11,310 nucleotides of DNA from Deltaproteobacteria bacterium RIFOXYA12_FULL_61_11 (lineage in GTDB: Bacteria; Bdellovibrionota_F; JAHFAK01; YA12-FULL-61-11): NCBI GenBank assembly GCA_001799195.1, contig MGSU01000238.1:1-11310 (forward strand), given 5' to 3'. Every line of letters starts with the position of its first letter. The first letter of the stretch is position 1. A model generated the notes under the pieces. It was not told the DNA's origin and ran no database searches. It was given only the letters and a program-made list of their open reading frames with translations. The translations under genes and the position numbers were made by a program. Positions 1-11,310 of the stretch are shown here, one piece after another.

Positions 1-3000
1 AACAGTAATTACATATGTTCCTATTTCTATTCCAGTAACAGCATTAAATTTACCTCCATTCGACCACCTGTATTTATATGGATCTGTTCCACCTATTGCA
101 TTTACAACAATTTCCCCATCACTTCCACCGAAACATTTCACATTTGAAATACTGTCAATGCTAATTGTTAATGGTTCTGGTTGAGTTAAAATAACCTCTT
201 GTGATTCGGTACAACCATTTTCATCAGAAACATAAACCATATAGCTAACATTCGGTTCAAGATTCGTAACAGCAGCTGTTGTTGATGTGTCAGCATCAGT
301 CCAAACATATGTATAATGTGGCTCTGAAGAATATGGGGTTCCGCCTGACACAAAAACTTCAGCAGTTCCATCATTTGCTCCATTACATGTGATATTGGAA
401 GGTGAAACTGATATAGAAATTTGAGATGGTTCAGGTAAAATTGTAACCGTTGCTGTTCCTTCGCAACCAATACTATCAATTACATCAACTGTATAAATTC
501 CTGGAATTAATCCAGTAATACTTTGCGAAATATTTCCATTCGACCACAAGTAAGAAACTGGAGGAATAGCAGCTGGTACATTTGCAATAATAGACCCGGT
601 TTCTTTGAAGCATTGAATTTGCGTTGTATTTGGATATACATTTAAGTTTCCAACTGTTTGAATTTCAATTTCAAATTGGTTAACACAACTATTAGCATCA
701 GTAATAACAATAGAATAATCTCCAAAAGGAAGACCTGATAAAGTATCGGTATCGGCAACTCCTGTTGACCATAACCAATTATATGGTGCTGTTCCGCCAG
801 TTATAGAAATCACATAGATTTCTCCATTGTCGAATCCGCAAGTTGTTGCTTTAGTTTCCCAATCCAATACGATTTGTGTTGGTTCTTGTACCTCAACAGT
901 ATCAAGGAATGTACAACCGTTTGCATCGGTAATGGTTACTTTATAGAATCCGGCAACCAAACTGTCTACTGTAGCAGTTGTAGCTCCGTATGCCCAAGCA
1001 TATGCGTATGGAGACGTTCCGCCTGAAACAGTTAACGCAATCTCGCCATCGTAACCTTCGTAACACGAAACCGAACTAACCAATGCCGTATCAACAACAA
1101 GTGGTCCTGATGGCTCTGTTATGGTAATTGTTTGAGTTGCAGCTGTACAGCCTTTACTATCGGTTATGGTTGCAACATAAGTTCCTGCTGAAATATTCAA
1201 CAAATTATATGTTATTTCCCCCGAAGCCCATAAGTAGGTATATGGTGCTGTTCCGCCTTCAACATCTAGAGCAATGCTTCCATCAGTTGAACCATAACAC
1301 ATTGCAGCATTTATAATAATTGATGCTTGTAGTGAATCTGGTTGAACAATTGTTACATCTAACGAATCAACACAACCATTTCCATCGGTAACCGTTACTG
1401 AATGAACCCCCGCAGCCAATCCGCTTGCAGTAGTGTTATTTGATCCATTCTCCCATAAATATGAGTATGGATTAACTCCTCCAGCCGCAAATACGGTTGC
1501 TGAAGCATCAGCTACTCCATAGCAGCTAACCATAGAACTTGAGGTTTGAACCAAAGTTGGATAGCCATCATTATCAACAGTTACAATTAATGTTCTGCTA
1601 CATCCAAGTGTGTCAGTAACAGTAACCACATAATTCGCAGCTGCTAAATTTGAAATGGTCGCAGTATTGCCTCCATTTGACCATGCATAAGTGTATGGGC
1701 TAGTTCCTCCTACTGGAATCACTGTAGCCGAACCATTATTAGATCCGCAAGAAGCATCAATATTTGTTGACGACAAGTTAATCGCCATAAGTGGCTCAGT
1801 AATATCAATAGATATAGTATCCATGCAATTAAATGAGTCAAACACAGTAACAGAATATCTACCTTCTTGTAAGCCAGATATATCTTCAGTTGTTTGTCCG
1901 TAATTCCAATAGTATGTGTAACCAGGTGTTCCACCGAAGGCTTCTAAATCAATCTGAGCATCAGAACCTCCATTACAACTAACATTAATTGCCGTAATCG
2001 ATAAATCAACAGCCGAATCCGGTTCGGAAACAATCACATTATCAGATACTTGACAGCCATTTCCGTCAGTTACTGTAACGTAGTATGTACCTGGGAATAA
2101 ACTAAAAATATCAGAAGATGTTCCGATTTGGACTCCTAAACTATTTTCCCAATTGTACGAGTAAGCAACTTTACCTCCAGTAGCTACTAAATACGCAGCT
2201 CCAGCCTTATCACCTTTACATCTAATATCTTTAGCAACAATAGTAATTGTTAAACTGTCTGGTTCTATAATAGATACTGCACTTGTTGCCGTACAACCAT
2301 TATCGTCAGTAACAACTACATCGTATGTTCCGGCAGTTGCACTAAACAATGTATCAGTTATTTGAGCAAGAACATCATTCCATAAATATGTATATGGAGC
2401 CGTTCCACCTAAAGCACTAACTGTAGCAGAACCTGTTGAACCTCCAGCACAAAGCACTTCTGTAGAATTTGTGAAAATATTCAAATTTGAAGGCTCGCTT
2501 ATAGAATACGTTAATGTTGTATCGCATCCATTCAAATCTTGAATTAATACAGAATAATTACCATCTGTTAATCCTACAATCGTATCATTGTTATTTCCAT
2601 TTGTCCAATTGTAAGTATATCCACCATTTTCGCCACTAACAACAACTCCGATTGAACCGTCGGCAAAATTGTTACAACTTACATCTGTAATTGTTTCTGT
2701 TACAACAAACGGAGACAGCGGTTGTCCAACTATTGCATTTGCATTTGCAGTACAACCATTATCATCGGTAACAACAACTGAGTATGTACCAGCTAATAGA
2801 GTAGAAATGTTTTGTATTATAGCACCATTATCCCATGCAAAACTGTAAGGTAATGTTCCACCAACAACACTTAAATATACTCTACCAGAAGGTTCTCCGT
2901 AGCATTCAGCATCGATTGCAGTTGCTGTAGCAATAAAGTCGTTTGGCTCATTAATAGTTACAGATTCAACCGCTTCACAACCACTACCATCAGTAACAGT

Positions 3001-6000
3001 TACCGAATAATCACCTCCACTTAAATTCACCGCAGAGTCCAATAAAGAAACAATTGTGCCGAATTCATCTTGCCATTCATAGGTATAGGTTCCAGCCGGT
3101 GTACTGAGCAAAGTAATTATAACACTTGCTGAACCGTCTAAACTACCAAAACAAGTTACATTTTCCGAAGCAGAGATTGAAATTTGATGAGCATCGCTAT
3201 TAGAAATCGAAATAGTTTTAACTGTGAAACAAGCATTTGCATCAGTAACTGTTACAAAGTAGTTTCCTGCAAATTGAGCAGTAATGCTATCGGTTGTACT
3301 TATTCCGCCTGTCCAAGCATATGTGTAAGGAGAAGTTCCTCCTGCTACATCAATATAAGCGGCTCCATCAGCACTTCCACAAGCTGTATTAATGATTGTA
3401 TCTATTGCTATGATAATCGCCGAATCTGGTTGGTTAACAACAATGCTTGCATAAGCTTCGCAATTCAACGAATCGGTTACAGTAACCGAATATGTACCTG
3501 CAATAATGTTTGAAATATCTTCATTCAAATTTCCATTACTCCATTCAAAGTCAAATGGAGAAGTTCCTCCGCTAACAGTAATCTCAACTGCCCCAGTACT
3601 TCCACCATTACAAAGCACATCTGTGCTATTAATTGAAGCAACCGATAATCCTGATAAAGGCTCAGAAATTGTTATCGTTTCAGAGTATTCACATAAATGG
3701 CTATCATAAACGGTTACATCATAAGCTCCCGCAACAAGACCATTTACCGATTGAGATGTTGCTCCATTACTCCATGAATAAGAATATGATGGAGTTCCTC
3801 CTGAAGGAAGCATGCTTATACTCCCTGTTGCCATTCCAAAACACTTGACATCAACCAATGTATGAGTTGCTGTAACAACAGTAGCCGGTTCTGAAATAAC
3901 TTCGTTTACAACAAACGTACATAAACTATCATCTGTAATTGTTAATTCATAAGTACCAGCAAGAACGCTGTTCAAATCTTGAGTTAATGCTCCATTATCC
4001 CAATTGTAAATATATGGTGATATTCCACCCGTAACTCCATATACATCTATACTACCAGTTGCGTCTCCATTACAAAGAACATCTGTTACGTTGGTTTGTG
4101 CACTGATTGCCAGAGGTTGAGTTATTATTGCTGAAGTATAAGCAAAATATCCATTTGCATCTTCAACTGTTACTTGATAAGTACCAGCAATAACATTTGT
4201 TATGTCTTGAGTAACATATCCTCCAGTCCATGAATATGTATATGGAGAAACACCACCCGAAACAGTTAAATCAATATCTCCTGTTGCCAAACCATTACAT
4301 CTAACATTAACAACTGAAGTAGATAATGTTATTGAACTAGGTTCAGAAATTAATATTGAAGCTATTTCAGTACAACCATTTGCATCAGTAACGGTAACAT
4401 AATGCGTTCCATCGCATAAACCTGAAGAGTTTACAGTCGTTTGTCCGTTTGTCCATAAATAAGTGTATGGAGCTGTTCCGTCAGTAACTGTAACTGTCGC
4501 AGTTCCATCGCATATTCCAGCTCCGGTTGCATCGGTATATGTAGTAATTGAAGCCGAAAGAACAACAGGTTCATTTACAACTATTGATGTTGTTTCAGTA
4601 CAAGAATTAGCATCTGTAACAAGTACAGAATATGTTCCTGCAGGAATGCTTGATAAATCTTGTGTTGTATAAGTTCCAGCATTCCAATTATAGATGTAAG
4701 GTGTGGTTCCTCCTATTACGGTTAGATTAACCGCTCCAGTAGCATTTCCATTGCAATCGACATCGGTTGCGGTATATGTAAGAGACAAAACAGCAGGTTC
4801 TAAAATAACTACTGATGCTGTGGCACTACAACTATTATCATCGGTTAAGTTAAGGCTGTATGTTCCGCCAGATAATCCTGATTGATCTTCTGCAGCGGGA
4901 ACTAAACCGGAACCAGTTGCTGTTGACCATAGATAAGTGTATGGGCTAGCACCTCCCGTTACAGTAATGGTAATTGCTCCATTATCGTTTCCATTACAAT
5001 CAACATTTGTAGAACTATTAACTGTAATTGTTGGAGCTCCAGCATCGCTGATATCAACAGACATTGTTTCAATACATCCGTTTGCATCAGTTACTTGAAC
5101 ATCGTAAGTTCCTGATGTTACTCCAGTGATTGTGCTGTCGGTTGTTGTGTTTTCCCAGAAATATGTATATGGATCAACACCACCAAGAGCATGAATTGTT
5201 GCAGAACCATTATTATTATTACATGTAGAATTTACAATAGTGGTATCTAATACGATAGCTGTCGGTTCTGTTATTGTTTCCGAAAAAGTAAACTGACAAG
5301 AATTGGCATCAGTAACCGTAATATTGTATGTACCAGCTAACTGAGCCGTCAAATTTGGTGAAATAATAGAATTTGTTCCGGTATATTGATAAGATCCTGT
5401 ACCACCTACTGCAAGAACGCTAATTTGTCCAGTTGAAGCTCCATTACACAATACATCGGTTACTGTGGCAGTTGCTGTCAATTCGGTAGGTTCTGAAACT
5501 GTAACGCTTGTATTGGTTGTACAAGAATGCGAGTCAGTAACTGTAACACTGTATGTTGCAGGTAAAACATTCGTTAAATCTTGTGTAGTTTGACTACCTC
5601 CCCATAAATAGGTATATGGTGCTGTTCCTCCTGATACTAATAAATCTACCGTTGGAACAATATCGCCATAACAAGCAACAGAAATAGGGTTGATACTCGC
5701 TAATAAATTAGCAGCAGGTTGTAAAACAGAAATATTTGATAAAACACTTTGACAAGCATTTCCGTCAGTTACCGTTAAATAATATGAGCCTGCATATAAG
5801 CCAGTAATATCAGCAATATTGTTTGTATAAGCTGTTGGACCAGTCCATGAATATGACAACAAACCTGTTCCGCCTATAACTGTAATATCGATTGCTCCAG
5901 TATTTCCGCCACGACAAGCAACATCGGTTACTAAAGTATCAATTGTTATTGCATTAGGTTCAGTAATTACAATACCGCTAAGATTATCTTGGCATCCATT

Positions 6001-9000
6001 ATCATCGGTTACCGTAACAGCATATGTATTAGGACCTACATTCGTTAAATCTTGACCAGTAAAGCCTGAACTCCAACTATAAATATATGGGCTTGTTCCG
6101 CCAATTACTGTAATGTTTACATTTGCATCGTTTGCACCAAAACAACTAACATTATTTGAAGTAGTTAAACTTGCTTGCAATTCACTAGGTTCAGTAATCA
6201 CAACCGAAATAATAGCTGTACATAAATTAGCATCGGTTACGGTTAACGAATAGGTTCCTTCGATTAATCCGCTTTGATTCGCTTGAGCAGGAATTAATCC
6301 TGAACCATCAAGAGTCGACCATAAATAAGAATATGGTGTTGTTCCGCCTGAAACGATAACATTATTAATAATTCCATCGTTTCCGCCAAAGCAACTAACA
6401 TTCGTTTTTGTATTCGTAATATTTAGTGCGTTTGGTTGAGTAATTGTTGCTGATAATATTGATTCGCAAGAATTAGCATCCAAAACTGTTACTGTGTAAG
6501 TATTTGGTGACAAATTTGTAATTGTTGCTGTTACTTGACCAGTCGCCCATGTATAAGTATATGGAGTTGTTCCTCCAGAAACACTAACTGCTATTTCTCC
6601 ATCTGCAGCTGCATTGCAAGAAATATCAGTATCCAAAATACCTGTAACTAAAGGTGTTGGTTCTGAAATCACCACCATTGCTGTATCGCTACAAGCACCT
6701 TTGTTAATCGTAATTGTATATGTTCCGCCTGATAAACCTGAGGCAGTTGGAGCTGTTCCGCCTGAAGGCGACCAAGTGTAAGTTGTTGCTCCAACAGGCC
6801 CGCCTGAATATGCTGCAATCGCACTACCATTGGCGTCTCCATTACAAGACACATCATTATGAGAAGATATTGAAGCTACTAATTCAGTAGGCTGTGTAAT
6901 TGTGAATGGAAGTACCAATTCGCAAGAATTTGCATCAAAAATTGTTACAAAATAACTATTTGCCAATAAATTAGATTCTGAAATTGCAGTTCCAGCAGAA
7001 GAAGACCATGCATATGTATAGCCTGGAGTTCCTCCAGAAGGTGCATTCACAGTTGCTTCACCATCGTTATCTCCAAAACAAGTTGCATTTGTAACTGTAA
7101 CAAATGATGAAATAGCTGTTGGTGCTGTAACTATTGCAGATGTATTAACGGAAATACCATTAGCATCAACAACTGTAACTGTATAAGTTCCTGCTGTTAA
7201 ACCAGAAGTCGTAGTGTGAGAAAGTCCTGTAGTATCGGTAACGCTATCACCACTCGACCAAGTAACATCATACGGAGAAACCCCACCTGATATGGTTACA
7301 GTTGCGGTTCCTTCGCTAGAAGCATTACACAAAGGAGGTGTTGTTGTTGTTGAAATAGATAAAGAACTTGGTTCATTTACAGTTACTGTTGCTGTTGTGG
7401 TACAACTGTTAGCATCGGTTAATGTAACAACATAAGTTCCATCACATAAATTTATTGCAGTAACCCCTGTTTGAGAACCTGTAGAAGCAGGCCAAGCATA
7501 AGTGTAAGGTGTTACTCCTCCACTTGCAACAGATACTGTTGCATCTCCATCACAAACGCCAAAAGCACTTGCATCGTTCGCTGTTGCTGAAGCAAATAAA
7601 GCGGTTGGTTGATTAATTGTAACCGAACCGGTTGCTTGACATCCTTCGGCATCGGTTACAGTTACTCCGTAAGGACTACCCACAACTGATAAATTTAAGG
7701 CAGTGACCGAAGATGATCCACTTGACCAAACATATCCGTATGGAGTTGTTCCTCCTGAAACAGCAACAGAAGCCGTTCCAGATGTACCTCCGTTACATAA
7801 AACGTCTGTTCCGGTTGCCGTTGCAACTAATTCGGCAGGCTCTGTAATAACTGCTGTTGCAGTTGTTGTACAACCTTCGGCATCAGTTACGGTTACGATT
7901 GAATTTCCGTCAGAGAGATTGCTTACACTTGCTGTTGTATTTCCAAGTGGCCAAGCATAAGTATATACTGGACCGGCAAATGGTGTTCCTCCGGAAACGG
8001 ATACGGTTGCAGTTCCATCGCTTCCATTATAACAACTTACATTCTGACTTGATGTGATTGAAGCAGTCAAAACTGTTGGTTCGGTTACAAGTATGCTACC
8101 AGAAGCTGTACAAAGTCCATCGTTGATTGTTACGAAATATGTTCCATTTTCTAAATCAGAGTAAGTAGAATTTGGAGAAACTGTGGTTTCAGTATATCCA
8201 GCAGGACTCCAAACAAATGTATATGTTCCAGTACCTCCAGCTCCTGTTGCTGTGATAGAACCATCGGTTCCATTAAAACAGCTTACATGATTGTTAACCA
8301 CCAAACTTACGGTTGGAGCACCTGAAGCCGTAACAGTTGCCGTAGCTGTTGCCGTACAATTGTTATCATCGGTTGCTGTAACAGTGTAAGAACCAACAGC
8401 CAATGCCGTAATGGTTGCAGTACCATCTCCAGCAGGAGTTCCTGCCCAATCGTAATCGAAAGAGCCAACTCCCCCAGAAACAACAGATACAGTTGCTGTT
8501 CCATCGGAACCTCCACATAAAGCCAACGTACTATCCGTAGTTAAAATAATTTGAGCAGGTTCTGATATTGTTTCAAAATAATAAGCTTCACAACCATTAT
8601 CATCAGTAACTGTTACATTATAAGTCCCTTCTGATAATCCTGATGCAGTGGCAGTTGTTTGGAAAGAAACATCGTCCCAGTCGTAATCATAAGGAGGGAT
8701 TCCTCCAGAAGGCGTAACAGTTGCTTCACCATCTGCTCCATTGTAACAAGTTGCATCAATTGCACTTGTTGTTGCAGTAACTACAGAAGGTTCGATAACT
8801 TCTGCGACTGTAGTAGAAGCTAATGGAGCCATACAACCATTGTTATAGGTTGACCAGCCACCATCGTATGAAAAACTTACAGCATCTCCATCATCTTTTT
8901 CTGGAAGATAAAATGGGTAGTATGTTACAGTATCTGCACCACAAGAGCCACCAAATGAAATTATCAAATCTCTTCCATTTAATGGATCAACATCAGTATT

Positions 9001-11310
9001 CCCAAAATGTCCTATGGTATTTCCTGCACATTGGAATACAACATATACGTTGTGATCTAAGGTTGTAAAATCAACCGCAGAAATATCCAAGTCTGTACTT
9101 GTAATAACAAGAACTTCTGCACCAGCAGGAATGCTCCCTGCAATAGGTTCAATTAAAGCTCCGCCTCCTGTAATCGTTGCATTTGTATTTGCCACAAAAG
9201 TAGGGTCGGTACACACACCTTGCCATGAGTTTGAAGGCCAATCAATAACTAAGGTAGAAGTATTAACTGCACTTGAACCAACATTAAAAGTTACCATTTC
9301 TTGCAAACCTTCTTGTGTTCCTCCACAGGAATTAACTAAAATATCGGTAATTTCGAAACATGAAGTAATAGGAGGTGCGACTAATAAAGCCGTACAATTA
9401 TTTACATCGGTTACTGTTACGGTATATGTTCCAGCAGATAGCCCTGAAATTGTATTTGTACTTGAAGCTGAAGCATAAGTATCAGCCCCTGGAGTCCATT
9501 CGTAATCGTAAGGAGCGGTTCCTCCGTTTACACTTACCGTTGCTGTTCCATTGTTATCACCATTGCAATCTAAGGTAGAACCACTAGTTGCAATAACCAT
9601 TTCGTTTGGCTGTGTAATTAATATGGTAGTTGTAGCTGTACAAGAATTATCATCAGTTATTGTAACCGACGCTATTCCAGAAGGTAAAGTCGTTGCTGTA
9701 GCTATAGTTTGTCCATTCGACCATAAATAATCAATTGTTCCTGTTCCGCCAGAAGGTGTTGCGGTTGCACTTCCGTTTGAATAGCCATAACAAGTTGCAT
9801 TTGAAACTAATGTAGCTGTTACAGTTGGTCCAGAAAGACTTCCAACAGAGAAAGGCTTAGATAAGAAGCATGCATTTCCATCAGAAACCGTAACGGTATA
9901 AGAATTTGCAGCCAAATTACTTTCTGTAGCTGTTGTATTTGCTGAAGAAGACCAAGCGTACGAATAAACACCATTTCCTCCTGATACTCCAGAAACAGTT
10001 GCAGAACCATTCGTAGCTCCACAAGTTGCACTTGACGGAGTAACTGTAAATGCGATTGCATTAGGTTGGGTAATAGAAATTCCTAAATTGGTATATGTAC
10101 ATGAATTACCATCGGTTATGGTAAGATTATAAGTTCCTGCTGTTAATACTATTTGACTTGATGCTCCAGCAACAATTCCTGAACCGCCAACAGTTGACCA
10201 TTGGTATGTGTATGAGCCTGTACCACCAGAAACAGACGATGTTGAAATGGCACCGTCATTATCGCCATTACAAGAAACATCGGTATCAGTAACTGTTGCT
10301 GTAATTGCATTTGGTTCGTCCACAACAATGCCACTCAAAACAACTTGACAACTATTTGCATCGGAAACCGACACAGAATACGTTCCGCCATCTAAATTGG
10401 AATATGTAGCGGTTCCGTCTCCAGTAAAACCATTTGGAGCCCAATTGTAAGATATAGCTCCAGTTCCGCCACTTGCTGTAACGGTAGCTTCTCCATCGTT
10501 GGCTCCATTACATGTAACATCGGTTGCCACAGCACTAGCTGATAAAACAGTAGCTGGTTGATTAATTGTAAAGGAAACAGCACTGCTAGTACAGCCCAAA
10601 TTATCGGTAATGGTTACTGAATATGAGCCAGCCGCCAAGCTTGAAATGTCTTGAGTAGTTGCTCCATTAGACCATAAATAACTAGAATATGTTCCCGAGC
10701 CACCACTTGGAGTTAAATTAATAGCACCTGTTGAGTTTCCGCGACAAAGCACATGAGTTAAAACGGCAGTTCCTGAAATTGCCGTCCCATCGTCAACGGT
10801 ATATGTTGCTGTTGCATTACATGCTCCAATATTATCGGTTACCGTAATATTATATGTGCCAGCCGATAAACCAGAATAAGTTGCTGTTCCATCTCCAGTA
10901 AATCCATTTGGAGCCCAATTGTAAGTATAAGGAGCTGTTCCGCCTGTTCCTAATACCTGAACAGAACCATTGCTTCCATTATAACAAATTGCATCGTTTA
11001 AATCGACAAGTGAAATGCTAACTCCGGTAACGGTGAATGACAAGCTATTTCCCAATACTGTATTTGAACAAGCATCAGTAACATCATCAACAAGGTTTAA
11101 GGAATACGATCCACCCTGTGTTAGTGCAGTATTTAGTGTAATTGTATATGATTGGTCATTTGTTGTTCCATTTACTCCAACGACATTTGTTATAGTGTAT
11201 GTATTTGCCCCTTGAGTAACCGTAAAATCGGCAATACCAACAGAAGACGCTAACACAACCTCGTTGAAATCAAACGTTATTGTATTTTCTCCGCAAGCAG
11301 GAGCACTTGT
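1..11310 (-). CDS. Giant SprB-repeat cell-surface protein (internal fragment, open at both ends)
   Basis: This is a 3,770-codon internal piece of a single gene; every in-frame codon was read and none is a stop, and no frame change was found. The protein has an Ig-like domain (fragment residues 1-96), SprB-like repeats U1-U7 (97-647), a lamin-tail-like insert (648-841) and repeats U8-U45 (842-3770). It is rich in Thr, Ser, Val, Gly, Asp and Asn and has only 17 Lys and about 9 Arg, as expected of an acidic, extracellular beta-sandwich filament. In the family, such proteins are exported through the Sec and type IX secretion systems and act as adhesins; SprB itself moves along the cell surface during gliding. 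The family assignment is firm. A gliding or adhesion role is inference, because many non-gliding Bacteroidota carry SprB-repeat proteins and the diagnostic ends (signal peptide, C-terminal type IX sorting domain) are outside the window. Start, ribosome binding site and regulation cannot be judged. Confidence 0.95.
4114..4566 (-). other. Variant two-repeat module U26-U27 with rearranged cysteines
   Basis: U26 (fragment residues about 2249-2324) reads TDATGAGICDGTATV, so canonical Cys1 is Gly and the new cysteine sits four residues later (residue 2267); a second new cysteine lies in GLCDGTHY (2299), and Cys2 is kept in DANGC (2313). U27 (about 2325-2399) keeps Cys1 in NVRCNG (2338) and has DANGYFAYTSAII, with Tyr where Cys2 should be. 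The layout and the 25-residue gap between Cys2 of the first and Cys1 of the second unit match U13-U14 exactly. U14 and U27 also share the T-S-A-I strand after the missing cysteine. Confidence 0.8.
7120..7605 (-). other. Variant two-repeat module U13-U14 with rearranged cysteines
   Basis: U13 (fragment residues about 1236-1314) replaces canonical Cys1 by Ala in NDASAFGVCDGDATV and places a cysteine four residues later (residue 1253); it gains another in NLCDGTY (1289) and keeps canonical Cys2 in DANSC (1303). U14 (about 1315-1397) keeps Cys1 in PPLCNA (1328) but has DANGISVNTSAIV where Cys2 should be. The pair therefore has four cysteines, like two normal units, but distributed three plus one. 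The likely pairing is CDG with LCDG inside U13 and Cys2 of U13 with Cys1 of U14 (25 residues apart). The cysteine positions are read directly; the pairing is inference. Confidence 0.8.
8788..9369 (-). other. Non-repeat, cysteine-rich insert domain, probably lamin-tail-like
   Basis: Fragment residues 648-841 interrupt the repeat array between U7 and U8. Landmarks in order are CFEITDILVNSCGG, EMVTFNVGSSAVNTSTL, DWPSNSWQGVC, then EPIAGSIPAGAEVLVITS, VYVVFQCAGNTIGHFGN, RDLIISFGGSCGADTVTYY and GGWSTYNNGCMAPL, leading through VIEP into U8. The order 'EI..ILV' strand, 'E.V.F.VG...VN.S.L' strand, a 'W' region, 'IPAGAEVLVI' and 'VYVVF' is the layout of lamin-tail-type domains (E-I strand, I-E-L-x-N strand, later 'l.pG.yvvi' strand). 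Domains with this 'ILV..CG' and 'E.V.F.VG' beginning are, as I recall, found in large Bacteroidota surface proteins. Six cysteines are present (TSC, NSC, GVC, FQC, GSC, NGC), an even number compatible with three disulphides. Its function is unknown; carbohydrate or DNA binding has been suggested for extracellular lamin-tail domains, but nothing here decides it. Confidence 0.6.
10399..10446 (-). repeat. Segment of U3 repeated from U1 (copy 2)
   Basis: This segment encodes the same 16 residues as 10873-10920, two repeat units away. U2, which lies between them, has the ordinary short loop (LWSNGATTQDISSL), so the shared form skips a unit, as expected if a two-unit block was duplicated or a patch was copied by gene conversion. 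Confidence 0.85.
10873..10920 (-). repeat. Segment of U1 repeated in U3 (copy 1)
   Basis: This segment encodes NWAPNGFTGDGTATYS, identical at all 16 residues to 10399-10446 in U3. Forty-two of 48 bases match, and all six differences are at synonymous codon positions. The loop between the core Trp and the G-T-Y strand is four residues longer than in ordinary units. Confidence 0.85.
11023..11310 (-). other. Ig-like (SbsA-type) domain at the N-terminal side of the repeat array, partial
   Basis: Fragment residues 1-96 do not follow the SprB repeat scheme. They begin with APACGENTITFDFNEVV, pass through alternating hydrophobic strands (ADFTVTQGANTYTITNVVGV, then SYTITLNTAL) and end with SYSLNLVDDVTDACSNTVLG before SFTVTG leads into U1. 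The layout of an opening F-x-E-x-V strand, a middle 'FTVT' strand, a 'YTITL..AL..GGSYSLNL' strand pair and a closing 'DDVTDACSNTVLG' strand resembles SbsA-type bacterial Ig-like domains, whose last strand usually reads like 'V.D.AGN.L'. Two cysteines are visible, near residue 6 and in TDACSN, and could form a disulphide. The true N-terminal edge of the domain may lie beyond the window. The assignment rests on pattern resemblance only; another Ig-like or cadherin-like fold would look similar. Confidence 0.5.

Follow-up and report, generated by a model that had tools for sequence, protein, structure and literature searches.

Gliding and predatory Bacteroidota carry very long surface filaments made of SprB repeats, and how such chains hold their length and stiffness under load is the question addressed here. 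Our window is the whole 11,310-nt stretch of contig MGSU01000238.1 from Deltaproteobacteria bacterium RIFOXYA12_FULL_61_11. The entire window is open on the minus strand, with no break in frame, and forms part of a reading frame of 4,427 amino acids (aa). The encoded adhesin has the domain order signal peptide, Big_5, SprB units U1-U7, a 190-aa insert, SprB units U8-U46 and a type B sorting domain. SprB repeats were found along the whole frame, and U11-U16 score 137.2 bits against PF13573 (gathering cut-off 28). The C-terminal sorting domain also passes its thresholds (TIGR04131, 59.1 bits, cut-off 35; CHU_C, 87.2, cut-off 27), which marks the 4,427-aa protein as a type B substrate of the type IX secretion system (T9SS).

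We write 1 for Cys1, 2 for Cys2, ab for the CDG cysteine (Ca) plus the LCDG cysteine (Cb), and a dash for a lost cysteine; the corresponding model columns are 15 (Cys1), 65 (Cys2), 19 (Ca) and 51 (Cb). Translation, a cysteine list and a unit alignment give 44 complete SprB units in the window and one truncated at the window edge. Forty of the 44 have Cys1 and Cys2 only, at aligned places. The exceptions are U13 and U26, of type '-ab2', and U14 and U27, of type '1-', so that each odd pair carries four cysteines. These counts match exactly those of a first-pass annotation of this DNA, which had also described the rearrangement as we find it: a first unit that loses Cys1 and gains the CDG and LCDG cysteines, a second that loses Cys2, and a total of four. 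The 25-residue spacing from Cys2 to the next Cys1, to which the annotation had drawn attention in the odd pairs, is present but not special, since among 39 measured junctions the spacing is 25 residues in 17 and 26 in 17.

We propose, with a probability of about 0.87, that ordinary SprB repeats are stapled to their neighbours by a disulphide from Cys1(n) to Cys2(n+1) and are not bonded within the unit, and that the odd pairs are junctions without a staple. The bond would run from the A-B loop, where Cys1 sits at the C-terminal end of unit n, to the F-G turn, which carries Cys2 at the N-terminal end of unit n+1. At U13/U14 and U26/U27 the two presumptive staple partners are gone together, and at this unstapled end of U13 and U26 a CDG-LCDG bond would link the A-B loop with the E-F turn. 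U8-U46 would then consist of stapled rods of 6, 13 and 20 units with two unstapled joints between them. The features concerned are as follows, in window positions.

1..11310, minus: part of the 4,427-aa reading frame, which occupies C48:1310-14593 in the genome of origin, G000 (frame translation and family profiles)
181..8790, minus: continuous SprB array U8-U44 (unit alignment; U45 is cut by the window edge and U46 lies beyond it)
7375..7608, minus: U13, Cys1 gone, CDG and LCDG cysteines present, Cys2 kept; last unit of the predicted 6-unit stapled rod
7552..7554, minus: U13 Ca (CDG cysteine), predicted partner Cb at 7444-7446
7444..7446, minus: U13 Cb (LCDG cysteine)
7402..7404, minus: U13 Cys2, predicted partner U12 Cys1 (7795-7797)
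7564..7566, minus: vacant Cys1 place of U13, Ala
7126..7371, minus: U14, Cys2 gone, Cys1 kept; first unit of the predicted 13-unit stapled rod
7153..7155, minus: vacant Cys2 place of U14, Ile
7327..7329, minus: U14 Cys1, predicted partner U15 Cys2 (6922-6924)
4345..4566, minus: U26, Cys1 gone, CDG and LCDG cysteines present, Cys2 kept; last unit of the predicted 13-unit rod
4510..4512, minus: U26 Ca (CDG cysteine), predicted partner Cb at 4414-4416
4414..4416, minus: U26 Cb (LCDG cysteine)
4372..4374, minus: U26 Cys2, predicted partner U25 Cys1 (4753-4755)
4522..4524, minus: vacant Cys1 place of U26, Gly
4120..4341, minus: U27, Cys2 gone, Cys1 kept; first unit of the predicted 20-unit rod
4147..4149, minus: vacant Cys2 place of U27, Tyr
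4297..4299, minus: U27 Cys1, predicted partner U28 Cys2 (3919-3921)

A profile built from the window's own units was applied to about 140 stretches across Bacteroidota. Set 1 comprised 40 stretches from the genome of origin and two genomes of its family (891 hits), set 2 drew 61 stretches (1,314 hits) from named genome contigs and from further genomes of the order, and set 3 took 40 stretches (574 hits) from families elsewhere in the phylum; the pooled data hold 2,512 repeats and 2,210 unique junctions. Across these junctions, Cys1(n) and Cys2(n+1) tend to be lost together ([[27,23],[3,2157]]; odds ratio (OR) 844, p 3e-45), Cys2(n+1) being missing at 27 of the 50 junctions without Cys1 versus 3 of the 2,160 with it. 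This co-loss recurs in each set separately (OR 464, 636 and infinite for sets 1, 2 and 3), and in none of them is Cys1(n) loss linked to Cys2(n) loss. Co-loss of Cys1(n) and Cys2(n) within one unit was not significant in the pooled survey (OR 1.2, p 0.74; 3 observed vs 2.5 expected), and neither was co-loss of Cys2(n) and Cys1(n+1) over the pooled junctions (OR 2.4, p 0.1). When unit order was shuffled within arrays, coincidences in the independent set averaged 2.2 and never exceeded 8 in 20,000 shuffles, with 12 observed; the own-plus-family set showed a smaller margin, with an average of 2.3, a maximum of 8 and 7 observed. The pairing of the two losses exceeds chance, in agreement with the earlier suggestion that the two odd units of each pair compensate each other.

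At the 23 of 50 Cys1-less junctions that retain Cys2(n+1), a new cysteine appears in the linker before unit n+1 in 21 cases (for example NNVPCT, SGSCT and NASCT), adjoining the end of the sandwich that bears Cys2(n+1). In the other two, Cys1 is masked by an ambiguous residue X (L143) or displaced by the alignment (L206). An unbiased scan of every cysteine column pair returned exactly three bond-like pairs, two inside a unit (19-51 and 56-70) and one between units, 15(n)-65(n+1). Apparent split units in L043, read as '1-' plus '-2', were considered as exceptions and rejected, as they are single units carrying an inserted domain. This domain, of ~105 aa, lies in the loop after strand C and recurs at several places in one protein of the genome of origin (contig C17).

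The ends of arrays are also informative. Since a first unit has no predecessor to staple its Cys2 and a last unit no successor to staple its Cys1, Cys1(n)-Cys2(n+1) bonding predicts that the ends deviate; bonding within units predicts neither end pattern. Deviating first units are '1-' in 18 cases and '-2' in 5, and deviating last units are '-2' in 25 and '1-' in 2 (p 3e-7). Only three units lack both cysteines, and these are lone units among the PKD domains of one protein (L114) that retain just the Ca-Cb pair.

A third line of evidence comes from direct coupling analysis of 1,832 adjacent unit pairs, in which 10,296 column pairs were ranked. Ca19-Cb51 came first, followed by its copy in the second unit, and 15(n)-65(n+1) was third (z 16.2), the strongest inter-unit coupling of all, whereas 15-65 in the same unit reached only z 1.3. 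Couplings between non-cysteine columns place strands B and F parallel (25-57, 27-59, 30-61), the F-G turn against the B-C loop (31-63, 33-62) and the end of strand A beside that of strand G (13-73, 12-74). This is a standard sandwich, so Cys1 would lie at the bottom, towards the next unit, and Cys2 at the top, towards the preceding one; the inter-unit couplings 16(n)-3(n+1) and 14(n)-63(n+1) lie beside the proposed bond. In a coarse model built from the couplings with no cysteine column used, the distances, which are rough median Cα values, were 34-36 Å for Cys1-Cys2 of one unit, 17 Å for Cys1(n)-Cys2(n+1), 50 Å for Cys2(n)-Cys1(n+1) and 10 Å for Ca-Cb. AlphaFold2 models were confident (predicted local distance difference test scores of 94.5 for U11-U16 and 96.3 for U25-U28) and in U25 placed strands A, B, F and G at residues 5-11, 21-28, 54-61 and 67-74. 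Cys1 (15) thereby falls in the A-B loop, and Cys2 (66) at the F-G turn or start of G.

The co-loss pattern, the array-end pattern and the coevolution topology are direct results of the computation, and we favour the Cys1(n)-Cys2(n+1) staple because it fits junctions, array ends and geometry. Some observations weigh against it. Interior junctions hardly separate the staple from bonding within units combined with swapping (2 vs 5 orphans); the separation comes from the array ends, the absence of both-cysteine loss inside arrays, and the geometry. The five '-2' first units deviate in the opposite sense, and 17 Å is a loose coarse-model figure rather than a bonding distance. In addition, lone units between other domains keep both cysteines in 16 of 28 cases, mostly beside other cysteine-bearing domains, so the staple model needs partners in neighbouring immunoglobulin-like (Ig-like) domains. 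Lone SprB units in L127, L136, L191 and elsewhere adjoin PKD or other Ig-like domains with cysteines at Cys1-like and Cys2-like places, an arrangement which suggests that stapling may cross domain families.

The first-pass annotation had instead bonded Cys1 to Cys2 within ordinary units and, in each odd pair, had stapled Cys2 of the CDG unit to Cys1 of the next unit alongside a CDG-LCDG bond. The small number of orphans that this leaves inside arrays (5 of 1,969 interior units) speaks for it, as does the CDG-LCDG pairing, which our data confirm; even so, we consider it quite improbable. It leaves orphans at the array ends, where 18 first units have Cys1 only and 25 last units Cys2 only, and the simplest loss it would allow, of Cys1 and Cys2 from a single unit, is not seen inside arrays: the three cases are the lone L114 units. 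By topology its proposed partners lie about 35 Å apart in ordinary units, where the expected co-loss is also missing, and about 50 Å apart for Cys2(U13)-Cys1(U14). The annotation had argued that ordinary units must pair internally because U12 and U15 would otherwise hold orphan cysteines. This argument fails, as stapling Cys1(n)-Cys2(n+1), an option that the annotation had left out of account, gives U12 Cys1 the Cys2 of U13, and U14 Cys1 the Cys2 of U15, leaving no orphan in U12 or U15. Finally, most CDG units have not lost Cys1: 173 of 199 retain it together with Cys2. For this reason the double module that the annotation had envisaged, a CDG unit followed by a repeat without Cys2, is not the common arrangement: 163 of the 172 CDG-type units with a known successor bear Cys1 and precede a unit that retains Cys2, a result that the annotation itself had named as one that would speak against its reading.

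Another explanation, which we regard as highly improbable, is that the cysteines are not bonded to each other, being reduced or binding metal, and that the co-loss reflects block copying of double units. The window cases may indeed share an ancestor. U13 and U26 are unusually alike (51% identity, rank 4 of 946 unit pairs), as are U14 and U27 (46%, rank 24 of 946), and in a ranking of 1,832 that leaves out the cysteine columns, each double unit is 9th for the other. L058 and L111 again show a DAS/T-x-A-G-[VI]-CDG signature. It is possible that the double unit was copied between U13/U14 and U26/U27. The neighbours U15 and U28 are not alike (rank 592 of 946), so if the odd pairs share an ancestor, only the two units do. 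Segmental duplication with a 13-unit period was rejected, as identity at lag 13 (35.5%) is like that at other lags. Against copying as a general explanation, the 50 Cys1-less junctions fall into 46 sequence clusters in 28 proteins and thus are not copies of one event, and the linker cysteine is a different route to compensation. The protein, moreover, has export signals, and disulphides form outside the cytoplasm; the co-occurrence of Ca and Cb (172 of 172) is what a disulphide gives. The remaining scheme, an ordinary bond across the linker from Cys2(n) to Cys1(n+1), has the shortest sequence spacing (25-28 residues) but is hardly credible, with 104 orphans in 1,969 interior units compared with 2 for Cys1(n)-Cys2(n+1), no significant co-loss, and array ends whose deviations run the other way.

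The CDG and LCDG cysteines probably bond inside the unit, as the annotation had supposed, in a common optional bond that would tie the A-B loop to the E-F turn. The two occur together in 172 units; two further units have Cb without Ca, and no unit has Ca without Cb. They give the strongest coupling in the family and a separation of about 10 Å in a model blind to cysteines. This bond would usually come on top of the staple. CDG/LCDG cysteines are commoner in units without Cys1 (20 of 96 vs 179 of 2,416, p 4e-5), chiefly in the lineage of the window. A third optional pair, 56-70, spans strands F and G; both cysteines are present in 20 units, and 70 is never alone. This pair (YCVTV ... SCVTI) is seen in L065, L144 and others.

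We infer that the disulphides form, and that staples would stiffen the filament while open joints could give local flexibility, bending or yielding. If neighbouring repeats are stapled, the filament would be a chain with covalent bracing, and the sequence by itself would show where its open joints are; the stiffness of the chain may be readable from the gene, its mechanics could be probed by single cysteine changes, and domain boundaries and junction types could be assigned in thousands of arrays that lack annotation. One to three open or self-capped joints occur in other arrays, and L199 and L217, from other families of the phylum, show a strict three-unit pattern '-2 1- 12', readable as stapled triplets parted by open joints. 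We tentatively suggest, at somewhat less than even odds, that SprB adhesins across Bacteroidota carry a mechanical code in which the cysteines of a junction make it stapled, open, or self-capped through a linker cysteine, and in which open joints, such as those at every third unit in these two arrays, are under selection and set the sites of bending or yielding.

The best fold match was GhpA (Grappling hook protein A) of Aureispira sp. CCB-QB1, a heptameric hook and the nearest relative with a solved structure. The match is distant (Foldseek E 9e-16; structural alignment VIA Z 12.1 over 428 residues, root-mean-square deviation 9.8; profile match E 1e-35), with about 20% identity, and its domains belong to other Ig-like families. 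GhpA domains (cryo-electron microscopy structures 9FLW, 9FLP, 9FLS and others) carry a cysteine ahead of strand B and another at the F-G turn, like Cys1 and Cys2, and these structures may already show such inter-domain bonds. Adhesin extender domains also stiffen long tandem-domain stalks, but are reinforced by calcium clamps (PMC5380327) or by ester bonds within the domain (PMC12679949), whereas for the SprB array we propose a disulphide between neighbouring domains. A literature search on SprB with disulphide, cysteine or structure, which left most subscription journals outside its reach, found no description of connectivity or junction types, and a 2021 contact-based model of the SprB family mentions no disulphide connectivity (PMC8078820).

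Directly downstream of the adhesin and outside the window (L031:324-1235) is a gene of the PorP/SprF family (TIGR03519, 274 bits; PF11751, 260 bits), so the two form an adhesin/carrier gene pair of the SprB-SprF type. PF13573 repeats, a type B T9SS sorting domain and an adjacent PorP/SprF gene are all shared with the Flavobacterium SprB gliding adhesin. In F. johnsoniae, a twin-cysteine tail attaches SprF to GldK, and the T9SS gliding machine bears load on this SprF-GldK disulphide (PMC12635249); disulphides under force thus fit the SprB setting. Unlike that SprF, the 303-aa carrier encoded here has no cysteine and hence no twin-cysteine C-terminal tail of the GldK track, so attachment by the SprF-GldK disulphide route is not expected. 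A search of plasmids gave distant relatives only. The insert of about 190 aa between U7 and U8 (window 8806-9375, minus strand) has six cysteines and no match in Pfam or NCBIfam. The genome of origin (3.9 Mb) encodes about 20 large SprB-array proteins.

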